Shown: positions 1-9,027 of the stretch, one piece after another | How positions within the stretch are numbered: position 1 is the first letter of the stretch | Layout of the letters: every line of letters begins with the position of its first letter | From: Polycladomyces abyssicola | Lineage (GTDB): Bacteria > Bacillota > Bacilli > Thermoactinomycetales > JIR-001 | DNA: 64,000 bases | Assembly (NCBI RefSeq): GCF_018326425.1 | Contig: NZ_AP024601.1 | Span: forward strand, 1,662,001-1,726,000 | Direction: 5' to 3' | The notes under the pieces: generated by a model | Seen by the model: the letters and a program-made list of their open reading frames with translations, nothing else | Databases searched by the model: none | What the model was told of the DNA's origin: nothing | Program-made: the position numbers and the translations under genes

Positions 1-264
1 CATCGTATTACGGCGGCCGGATCAGCGCAAAGGTTGCTGAACGGAGAGCGTGAAGCATCAATATTGAAAACCCTAATCGCCTGCATACAAAACGCCAAAC
101 GGAGAGATCGTAGCGTTCGTACCGGTTTAAATGTTATGAGGGATGCCGCCGTTGCTTCTTACAAGCCGTTTATTGAAAACATCATACGCTGGCAGGATTA
201 TGCTGAATTACATTTGCAAAACGCAGAAAAATTCGTGATGCGGATTACAGGATTTTCCGTATAG
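1..264 (+). CDS. Hypothetical protein, 5'-truncated by the window edge
   Basis: The frame is open from the first base of the window to a TAG at 262-264, so this is the C-terminal part of a longer protein (about 87 residues visible). An internal ATG lies at 34, but the open frame upstream of it favours a truncated gene. The visible part is basic and mostly helical in character (several Lys/Arg-rich stretches, then a Trp/Tyr-containing tail). I do not recognise a family. It sits at the edge of the decayed mobile region, so a phage or mobile-element origin is possible but unproven. Confidence 0.4.
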   Translation, partial: HRITAAGSAQRLLNGEREASILKTLIACIQNAKRRDRSVRTGLNVMRDAAVASYKPFIENIIRWQDYAELHLQNAEKFVMRITGFSV

Positions 265-451
265 TAGTAACAATCCCAGTATGATGCGTAAGCGGTCGCC
301 CCGGCTACGATTTTCCCTAACAGTTGGACGACCGCCGTGGTGCCCGCGGTCGTACCCAAAGACGATTATTCGGAACCCAACCATAATTAATTTTTAGTTT
401 AGCGAATTTTCGCTTCCTACCCCCTCGACTTCTACAAAAGCAAAAAATTGC

Positions 452-628
452 TCACGGGTTGGCATCGTCCAATACAGCCCAGAACCCGTCTTTCCCAACC
501 TTTGTTATCTCTCCATGGTATGAAATTGGGTTCTGTCCTTCTCGAGCATCGAAGATTACAACAATCTTTACTCTATCCCCTGTAACAAAGTTGAACTCTC
601 CTGTTTCATACTTGTATGTTACTTTCAT
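452..628 (-). CDS. Hypothetical 58-aa protein
   Basis: A short open frame starts with ATG (complement of 626-628) about 7 bases after a GGGAGA ribosome binding site and ends at TGA (452-454). The product begins MKVTYKYETGEF and looks beta-rich (alternating Val, Tyr, Thr and charged residues), with a segment of the type GDRVKIVVIF followed by GEITKVGKDGFWAV. This resembles a small SH3-like or KOW-like barrel. The fold is inferred and no family is recognised. It lies alone among decayed phage-type genes and is read leftward like its neighbours. Confidence 0.5.
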   Translation of the reverse strand: MKVTYKYETGEFNFVTGDRVKIVVIFDAREGQNPISYHGEITKVGKDGFWAVLDDANP

Positions 629-884
629 ATAGCCATCTCCCGGACAAGCTTTTTAGGTGCTTTCGATCAGTTAGTATTGTCATACAACTGCGAGATTAAT
701 ACATTGTTTTTAACCCGTATACACTGCTTCTCTTGAACACGCTCTTAAAACCCCTTCAGGTAGGTGGACGGCTGAATCAGTTCGGGAAACCGATCGGTTA
801 CCCTGAGGTATATTATCCGTAAACCATCTATGATGAAAGAAGCGGCCAAATTCCATCCATGGTTCAGCAATGTATTGTCATTGA

Positions 885-1166
885 CGATCAACAACAAACC
901 GGCCCCTTTCCATCGACCGTCACGCCAGCCACTGTTGTATTCGCTTACTGAATAGGGATATCAAGACGCTGTTTCCTAAAGTTCCTCTGGGAACCCGGGT
1001 ATACATTGAAGGTCCTATTCTGAGTCTGGGTGAGGGGCTTCCGAAAACACTGGTTCGTAGAGATCGAGGATCATTGGTCCTCTTGGATCAAAACCGCCGC
1101 GAGCGGCTGGATACTATCATGGACCAATGGATGGATTTTTTGAAGCTGGCTTGGAAGAAGCTATGA
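885..1166 (+). pseudogene. Remnant of an unidentified small gene (no start codon)
   Basis: An open frame follows the TGA at 882-884 and ends at TGA 1164-1166. No plausible start codon with a ribosome binding site is visible. The C-terminal 65 residues look protein-like (RDIKTLFPKVPLGTRVYIEG, then RRDRGSLVLLDQNRRERLD and a Trp-rich tail). The next small frame overlaps its stop by ATGA, which is how translationally coupled genes look, so this may be the 3' part of a real gene that lost its 5' end. No family recognised. Confidence 0.3.
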
Positions 1167-1306
1167 AGAGATATCAAAGAGATCACCGTCTTAAGGTAAC
1201 GGCCCAGATTCGATTAGTTGAATACCTGCAATTGGGATTCTCGGAAGTTGACCAGCTAGTCAGTTGGCCACCGCGTATCTATTTCAAAGATTGTTCATTG
1301 ATATAG
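1163..1306 (+). CDS. Hypothetical 47-aa basic protein
   Basis: The ATG at 1163 overlaps the stop of the preceding frame (ATGA) and follows GGAAGAAG. The product starts MKRYQRDHRLKVTAQIRLVEYL and ends at TAG 1304-1306. It is short and basic, and I do not recognise it. The ATGA overlap and ribosome binding site are the only support, and it may be part of the same decayed operon as its upstream neighbour. Confidence 0.3.
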   Translation: MKRYQRDHRLKVTAQIRLVEYLQLGFSEVDQLVSWPPRIYFKDCSLI

Positions 1307-1448
1307 TTTTCGCGTTCGACTTATAATAAAAAAGTGCATCGAGCTATTGGTGGCGACGGATGTCTTCACATGGCTCTGAACATCCCCTTGCCCTCGTTTT
1401 CAGGTCTCTCTTCTCAGGTAATTGCGGGGACTCACCCCGCTCTTTTTT

Positions 1449-1960
1449 TTACTTAGTTTCTTCTGCTGTTTCCTCCGGTGGCCGCTCGTTCTCGATTCCC
1501 TCCCACACATCGGATGGATCAACGCCCAAAGCACGGACAAACTGATCGACCACCTTCTCGACCGCTTCGTCCGACAATCCCCGTTCCTTGCGCTCCAATT
1601 CACGCCGCCTGATCTCGTTCTCCTGTTCCTTCAGATCAAGTTTACGCTTCTTATGGATCTTGTCCCACATGGTCCTGATGACCACGGCAGCGGAATGTGG
1701 TGTGGCCTTTTGCAGCGTTTCCGTTTTCTTCAGATGATACATGTATAGATTGATGATCTCCCAGGCCTGATCGATGTGATCGGCTATTTTTTGGGTTCGA
1801 AGTTTTTCCAACTCTTCCGAATCTATCTCCTCACCCTCTTTACCGTGGAAGGAGATACCCCAAATTTCCGTGCCGTCTCCTTTTTACTCCCACACGCTGC
1901 ATAATAGGCCCTGATTTCCTCACGGGTTTTATCGTCGATTTTCTTCCCGCGTTTACCCAT
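1449..1960 (-). pseudogene. Phage terminase small-subunit-like HTH protein, frameshifted
   Basis: Two overlapping leftward frames together resemble one phage DNA-packaging HTH protein. The first (1823-1960, 45 aa) starts MGKRGKKIDDKTREEIRAYY and carries a helix-turn-helix of the type SKKETARKFGVSPSTVKRV before a premature TAG. The second (1449 to about 1845) is open through EEIDSEELEKLRTQKIADHI and runs as a long charged helical tail to the natural stop. It has only a TTG as a possible start of its own. A single-base indel near 1826-1845 explains the split. The original product would be about 165 residues. A GAGGTGG ribosome binding site precedes the first ATG. The order ArpU regulator, small genes, terminase-like HTH is typical of phage late regions (established); assignment to the terminase small subunit is an inference from HTH plus coiled tail. 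Confidence 0.55.
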
Positions 1961-1981
1961 TACATAGCCACCACCTCAACC

Positions 1982-2083
1982 TCAACCCCTATGAGTCACA
2001 GCATAAATCCAAAAAGCTAACACCCCAAACACTGCAATAGAGAAACCGAACATAAACCCGATCATCAGTCCAAACCAGAACAC
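1982..2083 (-). CDS. Small single-span membrane protein, 33 aa
   Basis: A short frame starts with GTG (complement of 2081-2083), about 8 bases after GAGAGTGG, and ends at TGA 1982-1984. The product is almost entirely one hydrophobic helix rich in Phe, Gly and Ile (starts MFWFGLMIGFMFGFSI) with a short basic tail THRG. It sits just upstream of the terminase-like gene on the same strand. Tiny membrane proteins are common in phage early and late modules. No specific role can be assigned. Confidence 0.4.
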   Translation of the reverse strand: MFWFGLMIGFMFGFSIAVFGVLAFWIYAVTHRG

Positions 2084-2264
2084 AATGTCACCACTCTCTC
2101 AATCAAATGGCCAATCCGATTAATAATATTGTTGCTCCCCATGCTAGATTCCAACCAGCTGAAAATATTTCACCTTCCCGCCAATAATGACGGAAAGCAT
2201 CAAGCATATGAGCAGCCAAACCAAAATAAACAAAGCTCAACAGAAACTCCATGAGGAAACCCCC

Positions 2265-2502
2265 TCACTTGACCAGGGAATAGAACCATTCCCGGTCTTT
2301 CATATCCAAAGCTATATCAATCAACGCTGCGCGATCTTCGTCGTGCAGAATGTCAGGAGCAAGCGCCACATCCTTTCCTAGCTCTTGTATGATGCCAACC
2401 ACATTCCGGTTCATAAATCCAAACCGAATCCATATACATTCTATCCACATACCCCAACCGAACCCTGCCGTCAAATCGAAACAGCACCCACGATCCAAGC
2501 AT
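2265..2502 (-). pseudogene. IDEAL-domain small protein, frameshifted
   Basis: The ATG at 2500-2502 has an AAGGAG ribosome binding site. The first frame starts MLGSWVLFRFDGRVRLGYVD, a small beta-barrel-like module that runs to about DSVWIY. The second frame then continues with MNRNVVGIIQELG and ends with a segment (ALIDIALDMKDREWFYSLVK) matching the IDEAL domain, a short helix named for its I-D-E-A-L motif in small Bacillota proteins. Neither frame is complete alone, so a one-base indel around 2410-2440 has split a gene of about 79 residues. The IDEAL call is from the motif; the role is unknown. Confidence 0.5.
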
Positions 2503-2556
2503 GACGGCCACTCCTTCGTGGAGAGGAAAAAATAGTTGGTTTCGTTTGTGAAACAA

Positions 2557-2890
2557 TGCTCGTGAATCGAACCCGAGATCGTTGGGCATCTTTAGCCCCT
2601 ACCAAGCAACCCATAATAAAAAAAGACCCATACGGGTCAGCGATCATGGCTCGCCCTTTGTGGTTTTGCGTACATCCTAAACCGCCGTCATCAAAAGGAG
2701 AGGGGGAAACCGATGGCAGGTCGTTATCAAAAGGAATCGGCTTGGTTTTTTTTGGCCTGTGGCCCTGGGAGGGTGTTGTTTACCCGGTTGCCCCTCATCC
2801 GGGTCGTTCGGACTAACTCCGAACCCTTCCGGCCCCATCTCACCTACATCAATAAGTCGCGATTGCCGAAAGTTGCCAAATAGAGGCATT
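2557..2890 (-). repeat. Dispersed module copy A: T-arm-like hairpin, terminator, conserved tail
   Basis: Read on the minus strand, the conserved tail (about 2753-2890: TTTGGCAACTTTCGG, CGACTTATTG, then the GGTTCGGAGTTAG and CCGGATGAGGGG boxes) is followed by a GACCC-loop-GGGTC hairpin with a T-run (2618-2638). A short GGGG-loop-GCCC hairpin and a second hairpin whose loop TTCGATT matches a tRNA T-loop come last (2557-2600). In this copy the T-arm stem reads CTCG/CGAG instead of CACGG/CCGTG, so one base pair has changed on both sides. Related copies are at about 4515, 6257, 7138 and 8129. Confidence 0.55.
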
Positions 2891-2999
2891 TGGTCTAGGC
2901 TAAATACCGATGCCAAATGGTTGGAACCATTTTTTTATCAAACGACTATTATGGTTGGGGAGAAGCCAAACCAAATGAACGTATAAAGGGGATGTACGC

Positions 3000-3215
3000 A
3001 TGATCATTCCTTTAATTGTCAAGGTGAACAATGTTTCGTCCGGTGGAGAGGTCAATTCCTCCGTTGTGAACGTGCTCTTGCAGCAAGACTCTATTCAAAA
3101 AAACAATACGCCCGTAGTCAACTCCGGAGACGCTACACAGTTTATCTTATGGTCGCCGCTGAATGATCCTGATGTGATCGATACGCCAATCAGAGAGTTG
3201 AAGTTTTTACCGTGA
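3000..3215 (+). CDS. Hypothetical 71-aa protein
   Basis: The ATG at 3000 is preceded by AAAGGGGATG. The frame ends at TGA 3213-3215. The product (starts MIIPLIVKVNNVSSGGEVNS) is beta-rich and polar, with many Asn, Val and Ser residues, no Cys and no membrane segment. It looks like a small structural or coat-type protein. A loose similarity in style to small GerP-type spore proteins is noted but no motif supports it. A small hairpin (AGACC/GGTCT, about 3277-3291) follows. Confidence 0.45.
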   Translation: MIIPLIVKVNNVSSGGEVNSSVVNVLLQQDSIQKNNTPVVNSGDATQFILWSPLNDPDVIDTPIRELKFLP

Positions 3216-3305
3216 TCGAATGACGAAGTACCCCATACTGGTCGTTAAAAACCATCAGCGGGCTTATAACTTATAGACCAATGGGGGTCTAAGGAGGCTT
3301 TTATC

Positions 3306-3764
3306 TTATATTAAATTCAACGCCATTGCCAACTTGTACAGCGCTCGCTTTTTGATCCGGTAATAGGTACGTTTACTCCACCCAAGCTCATCACAAACAA
3401 TCATGTCGTCCACAGGAGATTGATTCAAGTACCGATTTTCGATTAAAAACCGCTCGTCCAGATTCAACACTAACAATGCTCACTCAATCTGTTGGAGTCT
3501 AACTATCTTAGTGGCCCGGATGATGGCATATCGTTCTGTAGTGGATTGGTACGCACTAAATCCACGACTCACCGACTCCTCATATAGTGGAGTGCAAGAA
3601 GGGAACAGATTCCCAAGCCCCCCCCGCTCCAATTGTCGTTCATTTTCAATTGCCGCTTTTAGGACAGGGTATTCACGGAGAATACTCTCCACCTTCCTGC
3701 GAAAAGACGGCTTTTTATTTTTGACAACAGGCGCGTTTTTCGGTGCTGCTCCCACTCTTCTCAC
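3306..3764 (-). pseudogene. ArpU-family phage late regulator interrupted by an in-frame TGA
   Basis: The frame starts at GTG (3762-3764) and reads RRKVESILREYPVLKAAIEN, LFPSCTPLYEESVSRGFSAY and ERYAIIRATKIVRLQQIE. It then meets TGA at 3480-3482 and continues in the same frame through LNLDERFLIENRYLN, DDMIVCDELGWSKRTYYRIK to TAA at 3306-3308. The whole reading (about 152 codons) matches the length and sigma-like C-terminal HTH of ArpU-type phage regulators, which drive late or lysis genes (established for the family). The HTH lies entirely after the premature stop, so the product would lack DNA binding. No other frame change is needed, so a single nonsense mutation is the simplest explanation. 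Confidence 0.7.
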
Positions 3765-3982
3765 TCTTTTTTGCGATTATTGGCTACTGGCTGCATAACC
3801 AGCCATTCAACGTTATAGCAAAAAACGCTGAATCCTAAGCCCTTTCTTCTAATGCTTTCACCCACTGGTTTTCTCTAGTATATCGATACCAGCCTTGGTT
3901 GAACGGGGGTTAAAACGTTTATGATAATGCACACCTAGGTTACCCACCAATCCTAGGTAGCGTCCACGTATCACCCTCTTGA

Positions 3983-4028
3983 GGACGAGACTACACTAAT
4001 GTGTGGCCTCGTCAGCTATTTTTATACC
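3983..4028 (+). terminator. Terminator-like hairpin
   Basis: GACGAG pairs with CTCGTC around an inner CACA/TGTG stem, followed by AGCTATTTTTATACC. The stem and T-run suit a rightward terminator, but there is no intact rightward gene just upstream. It may be left over from a deleted gene. Confidence 0.4.
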
Positions 4029-4208
4029 TTAGGATAAGCCAATTTTTATCACCCCTTGATCCAAACCAACATAATATTGTCACATGCCTAACACCCCTTT
4101 TTGCTCACTTTAAGGTGGGCTTTATCCACAAATTATTCACATTTTATACACAGCTCTGTACTAATCAGAGCATAGGATGAATACTTTATTCTCAGGGTTA
4201 GTAATCCC

Positions 4209-4555
4209 GGTGCTTCCCTATGAGCTTCACATTAGCCGATCAGACGATCGGTTTTTTTCGACTGTAGCTAATGAATTTTTTCTGTTAATTTTGGTCAAGA
4301 CATTAATGAGGCTAAAATTACTAAGGCCTCGATGCAAAGGCGGAACCCCTGCCCGATGGGGCGGGGGTACCTTTTCAGCCCATTTTTGTCAACAGGTTAG
4401 ACTGTTACATATCCTGTTGTATGTCTTATAACGACAACCCTCGGCCCCTACCATCTCGGTAAGGTTTTTTTGATCTATTGTCGACCGGCTTTTTTATCTC
4501 TATCGGTATCATTTTGGTGGGTTGCACGGGAATCGAACCCGTGATCGTTGGGCAC
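4209..4555. repeat. 347-bp direct repeat, copy 1
   Basis: The stretch from GGTGCTTCCCT to GATCGTTGGGCAC recurs at 7822-8168 with only scattered changes. Internal landmarks in order are a CCGATC-AGAC-GATCGG hairpin followed by seven T (4235-4258), a GC-rich ACCCCTGCCC/GGGCGGGGGT hairpin (about 4346-4370), a CGGCCCCTACCATCTCGG segment, and the T-arm-like hairpin at the right end. It contains no credible gene. Copies this long, 3.6 kb apart, are substrates for homologous deletion of the DNA between them. Confidence 0.8.
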
Positions 4556-4770
4556 TTAGGCCCCTCCCCATAATAAAAAAAGACCCTAATGGGTCAGCGG
4601 ATCATGGCTCGCCCTTTGTGGTTTTGCGTACATCCTCAACCGCCGTCACCCAAGAGGAGGAAACCGATGGCACGTAGTCGTTATCAAGAGAAATCGGCGT
4701 AGTATTTTGGGCCTGTGGCCCTGGAAGAGGGTTGGTTACCCGGTTTCATCCGGATCGGCGGGATCGATTG
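4515..4770 (-). repeat. Dispersed module copy B with T-arm-like hairpin
   Basis: On the minus strand this copy has the CCGGATGAAACCGGG and GGGCCACAGGCCC boxes, a short stretch beginning CATCGGTTTCCTCCTC, a terminator (GACCC-ATTA-GGGTC plus seven T, 4575-4595), the GGGC-CTAAGT-GCCC hairpin, and a perfect T-arm (ACGGG-TTCGATT-CCCGT) followed by GCAACCCACCA (4515-4564). The last part looks like the 3' half of a tRNA ending in CCA, but no 5' half (acceptor strand, D arm) is present. Confidence 0.6.
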
Positions 4771-4963
4771 AACCACCATTTTGGTTTTTTTGTCCGTTCC
4801 TATACACTGAGGATCTGGCGACTCATGAAATTGAAATTTGAACGTTTGTGTCATTTCGATGGAAAACTGCCCCAATACTTCCCATTTATCTTGTAGCCCT
4901 TTGAAAACAAATCTGATGTATTTAATTGGTTTGAATAGTATTATCCTTTGATCCAAACCAATA

Positions 4964-5841
4964 TCATAATATTGTTGCCACATCGTCTGCTCGTGTGTCT
5001 TTTTCGATCCTGTTATCCCTTTGGCTTGACGAACAATGAAGAGATAAAGGAAAATTCGATCGCTGCCCCTGTTCGACCAAGCAAATAGTTCCTCCCGCGA
5101 TGAAGGCACGGAAACAATTTTTGAATATTGGCCGGGGTGGCTCTTTGCTTTTGGCAAGCTGTTGATATTCCTGCTGTACGGGTGTCAGTTTTTTCTTCTT
5201 CTCGTCAGCCAGCTTGAACACACCTGGCGCGACCCCTAATTTTTCCAGTTCAGTGTGAAGCCATTTCCGGTTTAATCCAAGTACGGTGAGAGGCTCGTCC
5301 AGGATTTTCCCGTCCATGATCACCGCTTGCGGTGCTTGTTCCGGACTCACCTTGATCCCGAGGTGTTTGGGGGTGATAGGTTGGTTTTCCTTTTTCAGGA
5401 GAACATTGATTTCTCCGTTTGTTTCCATAATCGCAAAAACTCCACGTCGGCCGCCTTAAAGATATTCTTCTTTCTCAACTGCTCCAACAACTCGTCCGTT
5501 GTAATCCGTTCCTTTTTCAAATTGTCTTCAAGGATCTTTCCGTCCTTGATGAGAACGGTTGCCCGTCCGTCTAGCCAACTCCGGAGGGTTTTGCCTTTCA
5601 GCTGCATATACTCAATTCCGATGGCTACAGCCGTCCAGACAGCTAAAGAAACAATTCCCAAATACCACTTGGCGTCCAATTCCAATGAAACATACGAGGC
5701 GATGCTTCCAATCGTGATCCCGGTGATGTATTCAAACAGAGAGAGTTGGGAAAGTTGTCTTTTACCGATTAGCCGGGTGAAGATCAGTAGCACCACGACG
5801 GTTGTAAGGGTTCGTAATAGGACTTCAATCCAATCCGGCAC
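4964..5841 (-). pseudogene. DUF421 (YetF-like) membrane protein, frameshifted and joined to the start of spoVAC
   Basis: The gene starts at GTG 5839-5841 after GAGAGGGATTC. The first 130 residues are a typical DUF421/YetF N-terminus: three membrane segments, FTRLIGKRQLSQLSLFEYI, and the soluble part with DGKILEDNLKKERIT and NIFKAADVEF. One extra A in the run at 5435-5439 (plus strand) shifts the frame. Removing it continues as EFAIMETNGEINVLLKKENQ through ILDEPLTVLGLNRKWLHTEL. Shortly after, the sequence changes to ADEKKKKLTPVQQEYQQLAK, EPPRPIFKNCFRAFIAGGTI, which is the recognisable N-terminus of SpoVAC, the forespore membrane protein of the DPA channel. SpoVAC homology fades near 5050 and the frame ends at 4964. 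The DUF421 C-terminus and most of spoVAC are missing, so a deletion fused the two. DUF421 and spoVAC genes neighbour each other in mobile spoVA operons (established for Bacillus spoVA2mob). Confidence 0.7.
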
Positions 5842-6765
5842 GTCTGAATCCCTCTCTTCGGATTCATTTCTTTTAGACTGCCATTATTTCCATATTCGTT
5901 CCTTAATCAACATTTTGAATCAGTTCCAACCCGGAACGTCAGAAGGCTGCCTGATCTAACGAAAGGTCGGTAGCCTTCTTGATTTAAAGAAAAAATCCAG
6001 TAGAAGGGGTAACTAACCCCTCCTACATTGTTTTTCACAGACACATGGCATTCTTCTTCTAAATATAAAGCTAAAACCGAGAAACTTTGTTTCCACAGTC
6101 GATCGACTACTGCTTTTCTCCACATGGTCTTTCAGGGTAAATCAACCTTCTGATAAGACAAGAAAGGGCATCCTCCACACGCCACATGTCAAAATCGGAT
6201 AGAGCATGTTTCTCCTGTTGATAAAGAGGCTGCATGACATACCGCTAGAAAAGGATTGGTGAGTTGCACGGGAATCGAACCCGTGATCGTTGGGCACTTA
6301 GGCCCCCACCATACAACCCAGGATGGCAATAAAAAAAGACCCCTGTTGGGTCTGTTGGCGGCAGAAGAATCACTCCCAGGAATGCGAATAATGGCTCGGT
6401 CTTGTGGGCTACCCACTCCTTGTCATCCAAAAGGAAGCGAACGACGAAATAAAGGCGGTCGTTTGAGAACGTTACGGTGTAATTTTTTGGGCCTTTGGCC
6501 CTGGGAGAGGGTTGTTATCCCGGTTGCCCTCTCATCCGGGTTGTAGCGGATTCGATCCACGAGCGCCTTATGCGGATCGAATCCCCCTACTCACTCTCAG
6601 GCTAGCGCGCATATCTAATCTCTTATTAAAATGATAATTTTTTAATATATTTGGATTACATTGGATTAACAAAGTGTTCATGAACGAAGAAGGAAAAAGG
6701 ATTTTCGCGTCTAATTAGATACATCGCTTATACACTTTTATATTACTTCAAAGGAGGACACGATT
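5842..6765. other. Gene-free stretch with hairpins and module copy C
   Basis: No credible coding frame is seen. Features are an 11-bp stem AGAAGGCTGCC/GGTAGCCTTCT (5941-5979), a second hairpin with arms AGGGGT/ACCCCT (about 6003-6025), and module copy C (6257-6560). The stretch from 6600 is AT-rich and leads into the small gene at 6766. Confidence 0.5.
6257..6560 (-). repeat. Dispersed module copy C with T-arm-like hairpin
   Basis: This copy has the same parts in the same order as copies A and B on the minus strand: the CCGGATGAGAGGG and GGGCCAAAGGCCC boxes, a spacer of different sequence, a GACCC/GGGTC hairpin with seven T (6331-6352), the GGGG-loop-GCCC hairpin, and an intact ACGGG-TTCGATT-CCCGT arm followed by GCAACTCACC (6257-6305). 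The acceptor-like strand differs from copy B by one base and the CCA is not intact. Confidence 0.55.
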
Positions 6766-6933
6766 ATGGAAGCTAAAAAAATAAATTATTCAAACAACAG
6801 AGATGAGCGTCATAATTATCCGGTTAATATCAATTTATATGAGAAGTACCTAGATCCACAAACAAAAAAAGGCATTATCAATTTTATCAAACGGTTATCT
6901 TATGCTTCCCACTCTAAAGAGACCAAAAACTAA
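6766..6933 (+). CDS. Hypothetical 55-aa protein
   Basis: The ATG at 6766 follows a strong AAAGGAGGA ribosome binding site 8 bases upstream. The frame ends at TAA 6931-6933. The product (starts MEAKKINYSNNRDERHNY) is hydrophilic with many Asn, Tyr and Lys residues, and its DNA is clearly more AT-rich than the chromosomal genes. It overlaps the zinc-ribbon frame that starts at 6902. The two could be one gene split by a frameshift, since the second has no ribosome binding site of its own. No family recognised. Confidence 0.45.
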   Translation: MEAKKINYSNNRDERHNYPVNINLYEKYLDPQTKKGIINFIKRLSYASHSKETKN

Positions 6934-7099
6934 AGCAAGAGTAAGGTGGGTGAAGCCATTGGATGAAATCGTAACCATAGCATGTCAATGTGGTAATGTA
7001 TTTCAAGTCGACAAAAAACAGTATCTTAATCTTAACAGCTTAATCCAATGCCCTGTCTGTGAAACAATCATCCAACCCACTGACCACTTTGAGGATTAA
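6902..7099 (+). CDS. Small zinc-ribbon protein, 65 aa
   Basis: The frame opens at ATG 6902 inside the previous gene in another frame and ends at TAA 7097-7099. It contains CQCGNVF and CPVCETII about 23 residues apart, the four Cys of a zinc ribbon, after a basic N-terminus (PTLKRPKTKARVRWVKP). Small zinc ribbons like this occur in phages and mobile elements as regulators or nucleic-acid binders (inference). No ribosome binding site precedes the ATG, so translation may be coupled to the upstream frame, or a frameshift may have split a single gene. Confidence 0.45.
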   Translation: MLPTLKRPKTKARVRWVKPLDEIVTIACQCGNVFQVDKKQYLNLNSLIQCPVCETIIQPTDHFED

Positions 7100-7137
7100 G
7101 ACAATATAAACGAGTAATTTTAAAGAAGCAAATGAGG

Positions 7138-7440
7138 GTGTACGAGGGTGTTGGTCACCCGTGACACCCTCATCCGGGGGGTTCGGACTAACTCCGAACC
7201 TTTGGGCCTGCCAGCCTTTCGGCAGACCCATAGTGGGCCTACATCGCAGACTTCCCGTTACCTGATAAGTGTATGGAGCGGGATAGATGAGCGAGTGACG
7301 GAGGAAATTCACCTCCGTTGTATATTTTTGTCCCCACTCCAAACACCTACATATTGCGATGTTCGCTACCATCCTTGATACCATAGTAACACCGAAAAAC
7401 GGTCAAATGGTGCCAAAAAGTTGCCAAAAGTTGCCCTATA
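7138..7440 (-). repeat. Dispersed module copy E, tail only
   Basis: This segment shares the module tail seen next to the other copies: AAGTTGCCAAAAGTTGCC boxes at 7415-7435, CATCGCAATATGTAGGTG, GGTTCGGAGTTAGTCCGAAC and a CCGGATGAGGGTGTC box. It has no T-arm hairpin. The segment 7280-7315 also holds GGAGG-loop-CCTCC. Most of it is shared with 8200-8470. Confidence 0.45.
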
Positions 7441-7625
7441 ACAAATCACTTTATTTGTCCCCTTATCTTTAGGAAACCGCTAATGTCATAGTCAAGGTAC
7501 ATAATTACGTTTGGGATATTTACCTTTTCAAAAAAATGCACATATGACTGTAAACTATTGCCCTTCCACAAAAAAGAACATTGGAATAACTTATCCTCAG
7601 AAAATGAAAGGGGAGTTTTAAAAAA

Positions 7626-7799
7626 ATGTCCACCAATTCTTTACCTACTTTGAGAGGAATTAATATCCGTGGTTTAATGACACAATTGTTGAATTTCATT
7701 CCCATGCCAAAAGCGATTCAATCGATAATGGGTCTTTGGAAAAACATCCAACCGATATGGAATATATGTAAGAGGTTTCTTGGATTTTTTAGGAAATAG
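7626..7799 (+). CDS. 57-aa cationic hydrophobic peptide with no acidic residues
   Basis: The ATG at 7626 is preceded by AAAGGGGAG and the frame ends at TAG 7797-7799. The peptide starts MSTNSLPTLRGINIRGLM and has four Arg, four Lys, no Asp or Glu, two Trp in a central LWKNIQPIW segment, one Cys, and a basic aromatic end (RFLGFFRK). It has no cleavable leader or double-Gly site. Small size, high positive charge and Trp placement fit membrane-active peptides such as leaderless bacteriocins (family knowledge). There is no adjacent immunity or export gene, so this is an inference. A perfect terminator hairpin (7848-7867, six T) in repeat copy 2 follows it. It is one of few unbroken genes in this region. 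Confidence 0.5.
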   Translation: MSTNSLPTLRGINIRGLMTQLLNFIPMPKAIQSIMGLWKNIQPIWNICKRFLGFFRK

Positions 7800-7821
7800 T
7801 AAAACTGGCTTGTCAGCTCCA

Positions 7822-8168
7822 GGTGCTTCCCTGTAGCTCTTCAATTAACCGATCAGACGATCGGTTTTTTTCGCCTGTAGCTAATGAATTTTTTCTGTTA
7901 ATTTGGTCAAGACATTAATGAGGCCAAAATTACTAAGGCCTCGATGCAAAGGCGGAACCCCTGCCCGATGGGGCGGGGGTAAACTTTTCAGCCCATTTTT
8001 GTCAACAGGATTAGACTGTTACATATCCTGTTGTATGTCTTATAACGACAACCCTCGGCCCCTACCATCTCGGTAAGGTTTTTTTGATCTATTGTCGACC
8101 GGCTTTTTTATCTCTATCGGTATCATTTTGGTGGTTGCACGGGAATCGAACCCGTGATCGTTGGGCAC
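7822..8168. repeat. 347-bp direct repeat, copy 2
   Basis: This is the second copy of 4209-4555. It begins GGTGCTTCCCT and includes the perfect ACCGATC-AGAC-GATCGGT hairpin with a T-run (7848-7867), the ACCCCTGCCC/GGGCGGGGGT hairpin, and the T-arm-like end. Compared with copy 1 it has small indels (for example TGGTGGTTGC instead of TGGTGGGTTGC). Both copies are in the same orientation. Confidence 0.8.
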
Positions 8169-8470
8169 GTGGCCCTGGGAGAAGGGTTGTTTACCCGGTT
8201 ACCCTCTCGTCCGGGTCAACTCCGAACCCTGGTAGACGATGTATCCTGATAATCGACCCATCCGGTCGATGTTAAAGATACATTAGCCCTTACGGCCCCA
8301 CCTCACCTACCTCAATAAGTCGCGTGACACGCAACCCTCCGGATCGACAGAGCCATTTTTGGTCCCGCTCCAACCACCTACATATTGCGATGTGAGTCGC
8401 ATCAACCCCCAATACCATCCTAACACGGGAAAATAGCCAATTGGTGCCAAAAGGTTGCCAAATGACCGAT
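8129..8470 (-). repeat. Dispersed module copy D with T-arm-like hairpin
   Basis: The T-arm hairpin (8129-8168) joins directly to the GGGCCACGTGCCC and CCGGACGAGAGGG boxes, so the terminator segment present in copies A-C is missing. The tail (8200-8470) carries CATCGCAATATGTAGGTGG, CGACTTATTGAGG and TTTGGCAACCTTTTGGCACC, matching copy E. The module ends just before the serine recombinase fragment. Confidence 0.55.
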
Positions 8471-8479
8471 CAAAATATT

Positions 8480-8993
8480 AACGATCGGCCAGCTTGATTT
8501 TCTGACTCATGGTATTTGTGATCTCCCGGATATGTCCGAGGGGAAAGTAGAAAAAGCATTATTTGAGGAAACTGCAATACATTATCCAAGAAGTGCCGCC
8601 GCTGAAACCACCGGAACCCGAAACGCCAAGTATCGAATCAAGGAGATTGAAGCGGAAATTAAACGGATAAAAAAACGGCGCAGGAAATGGCAAGAGGCGT
8701 TTGCAAATGATGTCATCACTTTGGAGGAATTAAGGGAAAGAACCCAGGAAGACAGGGAGCGAGAGGAACTGCTAAAAGCGGAATTAGAATTGATCCCGCA
8801 AACAGCAGCACCACCCCGGATATCGCGTGATGAGTTAATAGAAGCATTAAAGAACCTTCGATATGTATGGAAACGAGCTTCACGACAGGAACGAAAAGAA
8901 ATGATCCGCGGTATCTTTTCTCGACTCGTCGTCGATAAAGAGCCTGGCGGATCATATAAATCAGTAATCATAAAGGATTTTGATCTAGCTTGA
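8480..8993 (+). pseudogene. Large serine recombinase, C-terminal fragment
   Basis: The frame is open from about 8480 to TGA 8991-8993, with an internal ATG at 8532. The readable part has a long charged coiled coil (RIKEIEAEIKRIKKRRRKWQ, DVITLEELRERTQEDREREE) followed by SRDELIEALKNLRYVWKRAS and a basic IRGIFSRLVVDKEPGGS end. This matches the region after the zinc ribbon of large serine integrases, where the coiled coil controls integration direction (established). The catalytic serine domain and zinc ribbon are absent, so it cannot recombine DNA. It abuts the intact chromosome at about 9.0 kb, as expected for the integrase end of a decayed prophage or conjugative element. Confidence 0.75.
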
Positions 8994-9027
8994 GGAAACA
9001 TTGTATTTTCGTAACGTTAGGGAAGGA

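Follow-up and report, generated by a model that had tools for sequence, protein, structure and literature searches.

A 57-amino-acid cationic peptide gene kept open in prophages and prophage remnants of Polycladomyces: a putative new family of prophage cargo

Overview

Comparison of six copies from three species indicates that the 57-aa open reading frame (ORF) at 7626-7799 (+) of the window, the 64,000-nucleotide stretch of Polycladomyces abyssicola contig NZ_AP024601.1 analysed here, is a genuine gene that selection has preserved; the organism is a sediment bacterium. Four of the six copies are located in prophages or prophage remnants (G001 C16, G001 C6, the window and G002 C17); G000 denotes the window's genome, and G001 and G002 are the other two Polycladomyces genomes compared. 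Prophage cargo genes that bring about lysogenic conversion are known as morons. No family in the libraries searched covers this peptide, which we read as a putative new family of prophage cargo. We propose, at a probability of roughly 45%, that the product of this moron gene stays in the cell, is helical on the cell's own membrane and would benefit the lysogen.

The peptide gene and its flanking signals

The frame opens with the ATG at 7626 and its stop codon ends at 7799; the product, MSTNSLPTLRGINIRGLMTQLLNFIPMPKAIQSIMGLWKNIQPIWNICKRFLGFFRK, contains eight Lys and Arg and no Asp or Glu (net charge +8), with Trp 38 and Trp 45, an aromatic, basic C-terminus and no leader. The counts of basic, acidic and Trp residues, the nature of the C-terminus and the lack of a leader had been listed in the original prediction and are borne out by the translation for the window copy; the lack of acidic residues is not a rule of the family, because both distant copies have one Asp each. 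The ribosome site, described there as strong, is the Shine-Dalgarno-like GAAAGGGGAG at 7606-7615 (+), 10 nt upstream of the ATG, and we grade it as moderate because the GGAGG core is missing; its AGGGG portion is identical in all six copies. The perfect hairpin terminator was described correctly: it lies at 7847-7866 (+), reads AACCGATC-AGAC-GATCGGTT, forms all eight stem pairs and is followed by TTTTTC. Terminator-like sites are not rare in this neighbourhood, with two found at 7000-8400 against 1.6 expected from shuffles. A 57-aa ORF is by itself not above chance, because 133 ORFs of at least 40 aa overlap the first 16 kb; it is conservation in six copies, and not length, that lifts this one above chance.

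A conserved leader occupies the 100 bases upstream of the start codon (7526-7625, +), as seen in the alignment of the copies. It is conserved about as much as the coding sequence, with 89-92% identity among the four prophage-type copies and 57-68% between the two subgroups described below, and the sequence downstream of the gene is not conserved between the subgroups (24-41%). Within the leader, the block GAATAACTTATCCTCAGAAAA at 7584-7604 occurs in the genome only upstream of the two peptide copies when up to three mismatches are allowed; the reversed control pattern also gave one genome match. No promoter consensus was recognised upstream of the gene, and matches to sigma factor consensus strings did not rise consistently above shuffles. 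In a predicted fold of the leader and the start of the coding sequence, the G-rich ribosome site is mostly paired. By eye, the leaders allow a local hairpin over it; RNAalifold chose a different pairing, and its consensus fold has a covariation term of +0.11, with one pair showing a two-sided change. These predictions give a weak indication that the ribosome site may be paired in a leader hairpin.

Six copies in one genus

Each of the three Polycladomyces genomes carries two copies, and the frame is open in all six copies found; the loss of frame in close relatives that was to refute the original prediction did not appear among them. Thirteen of the 15 copy pairs have dN/dS values of 0.06-0.46; one of the other two reaches 1.23 on a single synonymous change, and the last has a saturated dS. 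Substitutions by codon position are biased towards the third position both between the window copy and the distant G002 copy (10/8/23, P=0.008) and between the window copy and the close G002 copy (7/1/10, P=0.03). On the dN/dS values and this bias, a chance ORF was rejected.

The copies fall into two subgroups. The prophage-type subgroup consists of the window copy, G001 C16, G001 C6 and G002 C17, with 84-91% protein identity to the window copy. The distant subgroup (G000 C1:1152307 and G002 C51) shares 61-62% with it and sits at a chromosomal site among transporters and metabolic genes; no phage gene was recognised near either copy among the ORFs tested there, which were some of those present. 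G001 has the corresponding chromosomal site, with flanks 82-91% identical, but no peptide gene there. Each copy has seven to nine Lys and Arg, among which only K29 and K49 are fixed across the six.

The family has been seen so far only in this one genus. Of 42 genomes searched in the order, the 39 outside the genus yielded no credible relative, and 398 genomes drawn from the class (order included) yielded no accepted relative outside the genus. Matches in the order at E up to 0.1 were rejected for G021, where the match is antisense to a PTS permease, and for G037, where it is antisense to an acidic, coiled-coil-like frame; inspection of the weaker order matches (E 0.0125-0.77) covered G021, G037 and G039. 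Outside the genus, the class search touched six genomes (E 0.004-0.019). Three of these matches were discarded for internal stops, and those in G381, G070 and G047 for overlapping long frames such as a transporter. The window copy has no relative in Pfam, NCBIfam or PHROGs, and the six copies together have none in Pfam or PADLOC, where one copy touched DUF1634 at E=0.16. The PDB held no relative by sequence and a single match by fold, at E=9.9. Among plasmids and phages the best protein match had E=2, plasmids searched by DNA gave no match, and the genome-contig and viral-contig collections, which may omit records very near the window's genome, contained no further relative. A literature search over titles and the beginnings of abstracts, where sequence is not searchable, returned nothing on the peptide.

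Prophage context and decay of the region

The prophage of G001 C16 is a well-preserved relative of the remnant in the window. Its genes run in the order serine integrase, helicase loader, methyltransferase, ArpU, peptide, HNH, terminase, portal, tape measure, holin and endolysin. The peptide gene, flanked by ArpU on one side and HNH/terminase on the other, is on the opposite strand to the late genes; the order around the peptide gene is the same in G001 C6. In the window the ArpU-type late regulator of the same prophage type is interrupted (3306-3764, -; its intact relative matches TIGR01637), and of the serine integrase (phrog_95), full length in G001 C16, about the last third remains as a C-terminal remnant at 8532-8993 (+). 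The peptide had been predicted to survive where most genes are broken, and it does stand intact beside these two broken phage genes, which are the ones examined; "most genes" goes beyond them.

Positions 1-9019 are the in-window part of an insertion of about 13 kb that ends at 9019/9020. The site is empty in G001, where the sequences flanking the insertion in G000 (C1 ~1658013 and 1671020) directly adjoin in contig C8, and in G002 it is occupied by a related remnant that lacks the peptide gene. A module that includes the peptide gene (7441-7880, +) forms one block common to two prophage copies, with 93% identity to G001 C16 and 87% to G001 C6 over 7442-7870; over 7518-7880 it is 90% identical to the G002 C17 remnant. 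A terminase scan of IMG/VR found 119 relatives, of which 80 were kept, 44 of these with at least 5 kb upstream of the terminase, and the peptide gene was present in none of the 80 related phage loci read. Since the gene is also absent from the G001 chromosomal site and the G002 same-site remnant, it appears to be dispensable cargo and not a core phage gene.

Several other features of the remnant were recorded. Positions 4205-4563 and 7818-8175 are near-identical duplicates (95.6%), the second beginning just before the peptide terminator; the pair is perhaps a recombination scar that moved the peptide module relative to ArpU. A probably truncated YetF-type membrane protein is encoded at 5395-5841 (-; PF20730, then PF04239 positions 2-57 of 129). 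Two small ORFs overlap at 6766-6933 and 6902-7099 (+): the first (55 aa) has two copies in each genome of the genus and one in G009, a genome from another family, among the 41 genomes searched, and the second is zinc-ribbon-like, with a match to PF05207 (E=6e-5) below the cut-off. A repeated element, present in several copies over 2557-8229 and recorded together with 8292-8356 (-), contains by eye a sequence resembling a tRNA T-arm; there is no tRNA gene in the window. A 94-base piece of this repeat has six genome matches including itself, all within this remnant, and beside one copy lies the genome's only DUF3800-VIII RNA match (RF03075, 43.2 bits). In G001 C16 the integrase end of the prophage adjoins a shortened gene (L098:4312-5217, -) that resembles comM/yifB and has only a weak PHROG match; its position beside the integrase end suggests that it may mark the integration site of that prophage.

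A neighbouring family of tiny membrane proteins

Five of the six peptide copies are preceded, on the opposite strand, by the frame of a tiny Gly/Tyr-rich membrane protein with one span; it is missing at the window copy, next to a junction near 7435-7441. The frame has a normal start in two of the six loci, lacks a start or is shifted in three, and is absent in the window. That the peptide has lasted longer than this neighbour is an argument that selection acts on the peptide itself. At the G001 chromosomal site without the peptide (C17, L045:10500-11080) the tiny gene is broken by an in-frame stop.

Members of the tiny family (L025, L027 and L029 beside the peptide, and many other loci) are 33-40 aa long, with a Gly/Tyr/Phe-rich start and a conserved span around RRLLIFLLVIATIF, and the family is multicopy and partly tandem. 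A search at E up to 1 gave 8, 13 and 15 matches in the three genomes of the genus, and the best E is 1e-3 or better in 18 of the 21 genomes searched. The members tested had no Pfam match and one NCBIfam match, to an unrelated family (E=0.39). In composition they resemble the YjcZ proteins. The YjcZ/tiny_TM_bacill model TIGR01732 scored above its cut-off in none of 11 genomes, which is weak evidence, because this 26-position model passes the cut-off in only 1 of 14 control genomes.

Predicted structure of the peptide

AlphaFold2 predicts two helices, one over 14-24 and the other over 29-56, the invariant FIPMPK marking the break between them; confidence in the models is low (mean pLDDT 71 and 68, pTM 0.30 and 0.28). 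The longer helix has a hydrophobic moment of 0.42 and is more amphipathic than shuffles of its own sequence (P=0.028); its mean Eisenberg hydrophobicity of 0.14 is that of an amphipathic helix and not of a hydrophobic span. For helix 14-24 amphipathicity is not clear against shuffles (P=0.09). The positions I31, I34, W38, I41, W45, C48 and L52 are invariant among the copies and form a strip with a spacing of 3-4; the periodicity of all invariant positions taken together is not significant (P=0.24). That so few Lys and Arg are fixed would agree better with surface charge on an anionic membrane than with specific contacts; in a nucleic-acid binder one would sooner expect the basic residues to be constant. 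The membrane-active make-up implied by the original prediction agrees with the predicted helices and the moment over 29-56.

Possible functions

Location in prophages and a membrane-active composition would suit a phage lysis peptide or holin-like protein, one of the two likenesses drawn in the original prediction, but in G001 C16 a separate holin (phrog_199) and endolysin (phrog_435) lie at 23.6-24.7 kb of the contig, about 21 kb from the peptide gene at 45.7 kb in the same prophage, and the two distant copies occur where no phage gene was recognised among the ORFs tested. The separate pair, together with the strand opposite to the late genes, indicates that the peptide gene is not a lysis gene, and this function is nearly excluded. 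A type I toxin, a small membrane peptide silenced by an antisense RNA, is unlikely, if foremost among the alternatives. TxpA and BsrG are type I toxins of Bacillus prophages. YonT of a B. subtilis prophage is another, according to PMC5848175, and the present peptide resembles them in being small, basic, of membrane type and carried in a prophage; small size, here below 60 aa, a basic C-terminus and prophage location are features of such toxins in PMC8309996. The ribosome site, mostly paired by prediction, would fit, as would a sigma-A-like antisense site in G002 C51 that matches at 10 of 12 positions, a score that 18% of shuffles reach. That site is not conserved, however, the other five copies scoring 8-9 of 12 and no better than shuffles; the downstream sequence differs between the subgroups, the leader fold shows little covariation, helix 29-56, by its hydrophobicity, looks amphipathic and not membrane-spanning, and one would expect the frame of a free toxin to break down in remnants, where this one is open. 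The other likeness drawn was to leaderless bacteriocins, which are secreted as made and kill related bacteria by membrane disruption; we consider this improbable, and place it behind the toxin. In length, net charge, Trp content and lack of a leader the peptide is within the range of aureocin A53 (51 aa, +8; PMC6131525). In G000 the chromosomal copy has an ABC transporter pair 0.7 kb away, and its likely counterpart in G002, judged from sequence reading, is about 7 kb from the chromosomal-type copy there; a sugar/MFS transporter is found about 5 kb from the G002 C17 copy. Among the subset of ORFs tested beside the prophage-type copies, however, none was recognised as an immunity or export gene, so that gene context leaves the likeness unsupported; the models have two helices, as against the saposin-like fold that PMC6072434 describes for many leaderless bacteriocins, and no relation to these peptides was found in the PDB or Pfam.

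A sporulation or spore-membrane peptide like SpoVM, acting with the adjoining tiny membrane proteins, is less probable again. Members of this order are known as spore-formers, the tiny frame adjoins five of the six copies and its family is multicopy in the order, and the basic amphipathic helix, likely lying on the membrane, recalls that of B. subtilis SpoVM. SpoVM is 26 aa long, whereas the present peptide has 57 aa and two predicted helices; moreover, the tiny protein does not match TIGR01732, itself a weak model, its start is normal in only two of six loci, and no sporulation sigma consensus stands out consistently upstream. Ranking below this, and doubtful, is the possibility that the phage carries its own version of a host peptide, a small protein of the membrane surface that both would share together with the conserved leader, chromosomal and prophage copies having been traded so that each genome holds two; G001 has no chromosomal copy and two prophage copies.

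We favour a prophage cargo gene whose product acts at the cell's own membrane. Like morons, the peptide gene has its own terminator, lies on the opposite strand at a prophage module boundary and is kept during prophage decay; unlike them, its family also has a chromosomal subgroup, and no promoter was recognised. The family would comprise prophage cargo and a chromosomal subgroup within one genus. The terminator and strand are observed, and from them we infer that the gene would be transcribed as its own unit, opposite to the late genes, with its conserved leader and terminator, and translated behind a leader in which the G-rich ribosome site may be base-paired. The product would remain cytoplasmic as a kinked hairpin, a short helix joined through the invariant FIPMPK turn to the long cationic amphipathic helix, and would rest against the membrane of its own cell from the inside. 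Ile 31, Ile 34, Trp 38, Ile 41, Trp 45 and Cys 48 would face the lipid, and a shifting set of Lys and Arg would lie opposite. There it may alter the behaviour of the membrane or of membrane proteins to the lysogen's advantage. Membrane binding is suggested by the predicted helix and its charge, and the benefit to the lysogen by selection on the sequences of three genomes.

Were the peptide a traded host copy, it would represent a new kind of lysogenic conversion, working through the dosage of a peptide that shapes the membrane or serves development, its translation perhaps under the control of the leader; were it secreted, it would offer a new antibacterial scaffold. The genes beside it are also a sign of a larger family of tiny membrane proteins, as yet unnamed, in this order. 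If, as we favour, the peptide acts on the membrane of its own cell, it would be a new family among phage cargo peptides with a role in the host, and its gene appears to be a clear case of a small gene outliving its prophage, visible only through the comparison of six copies.
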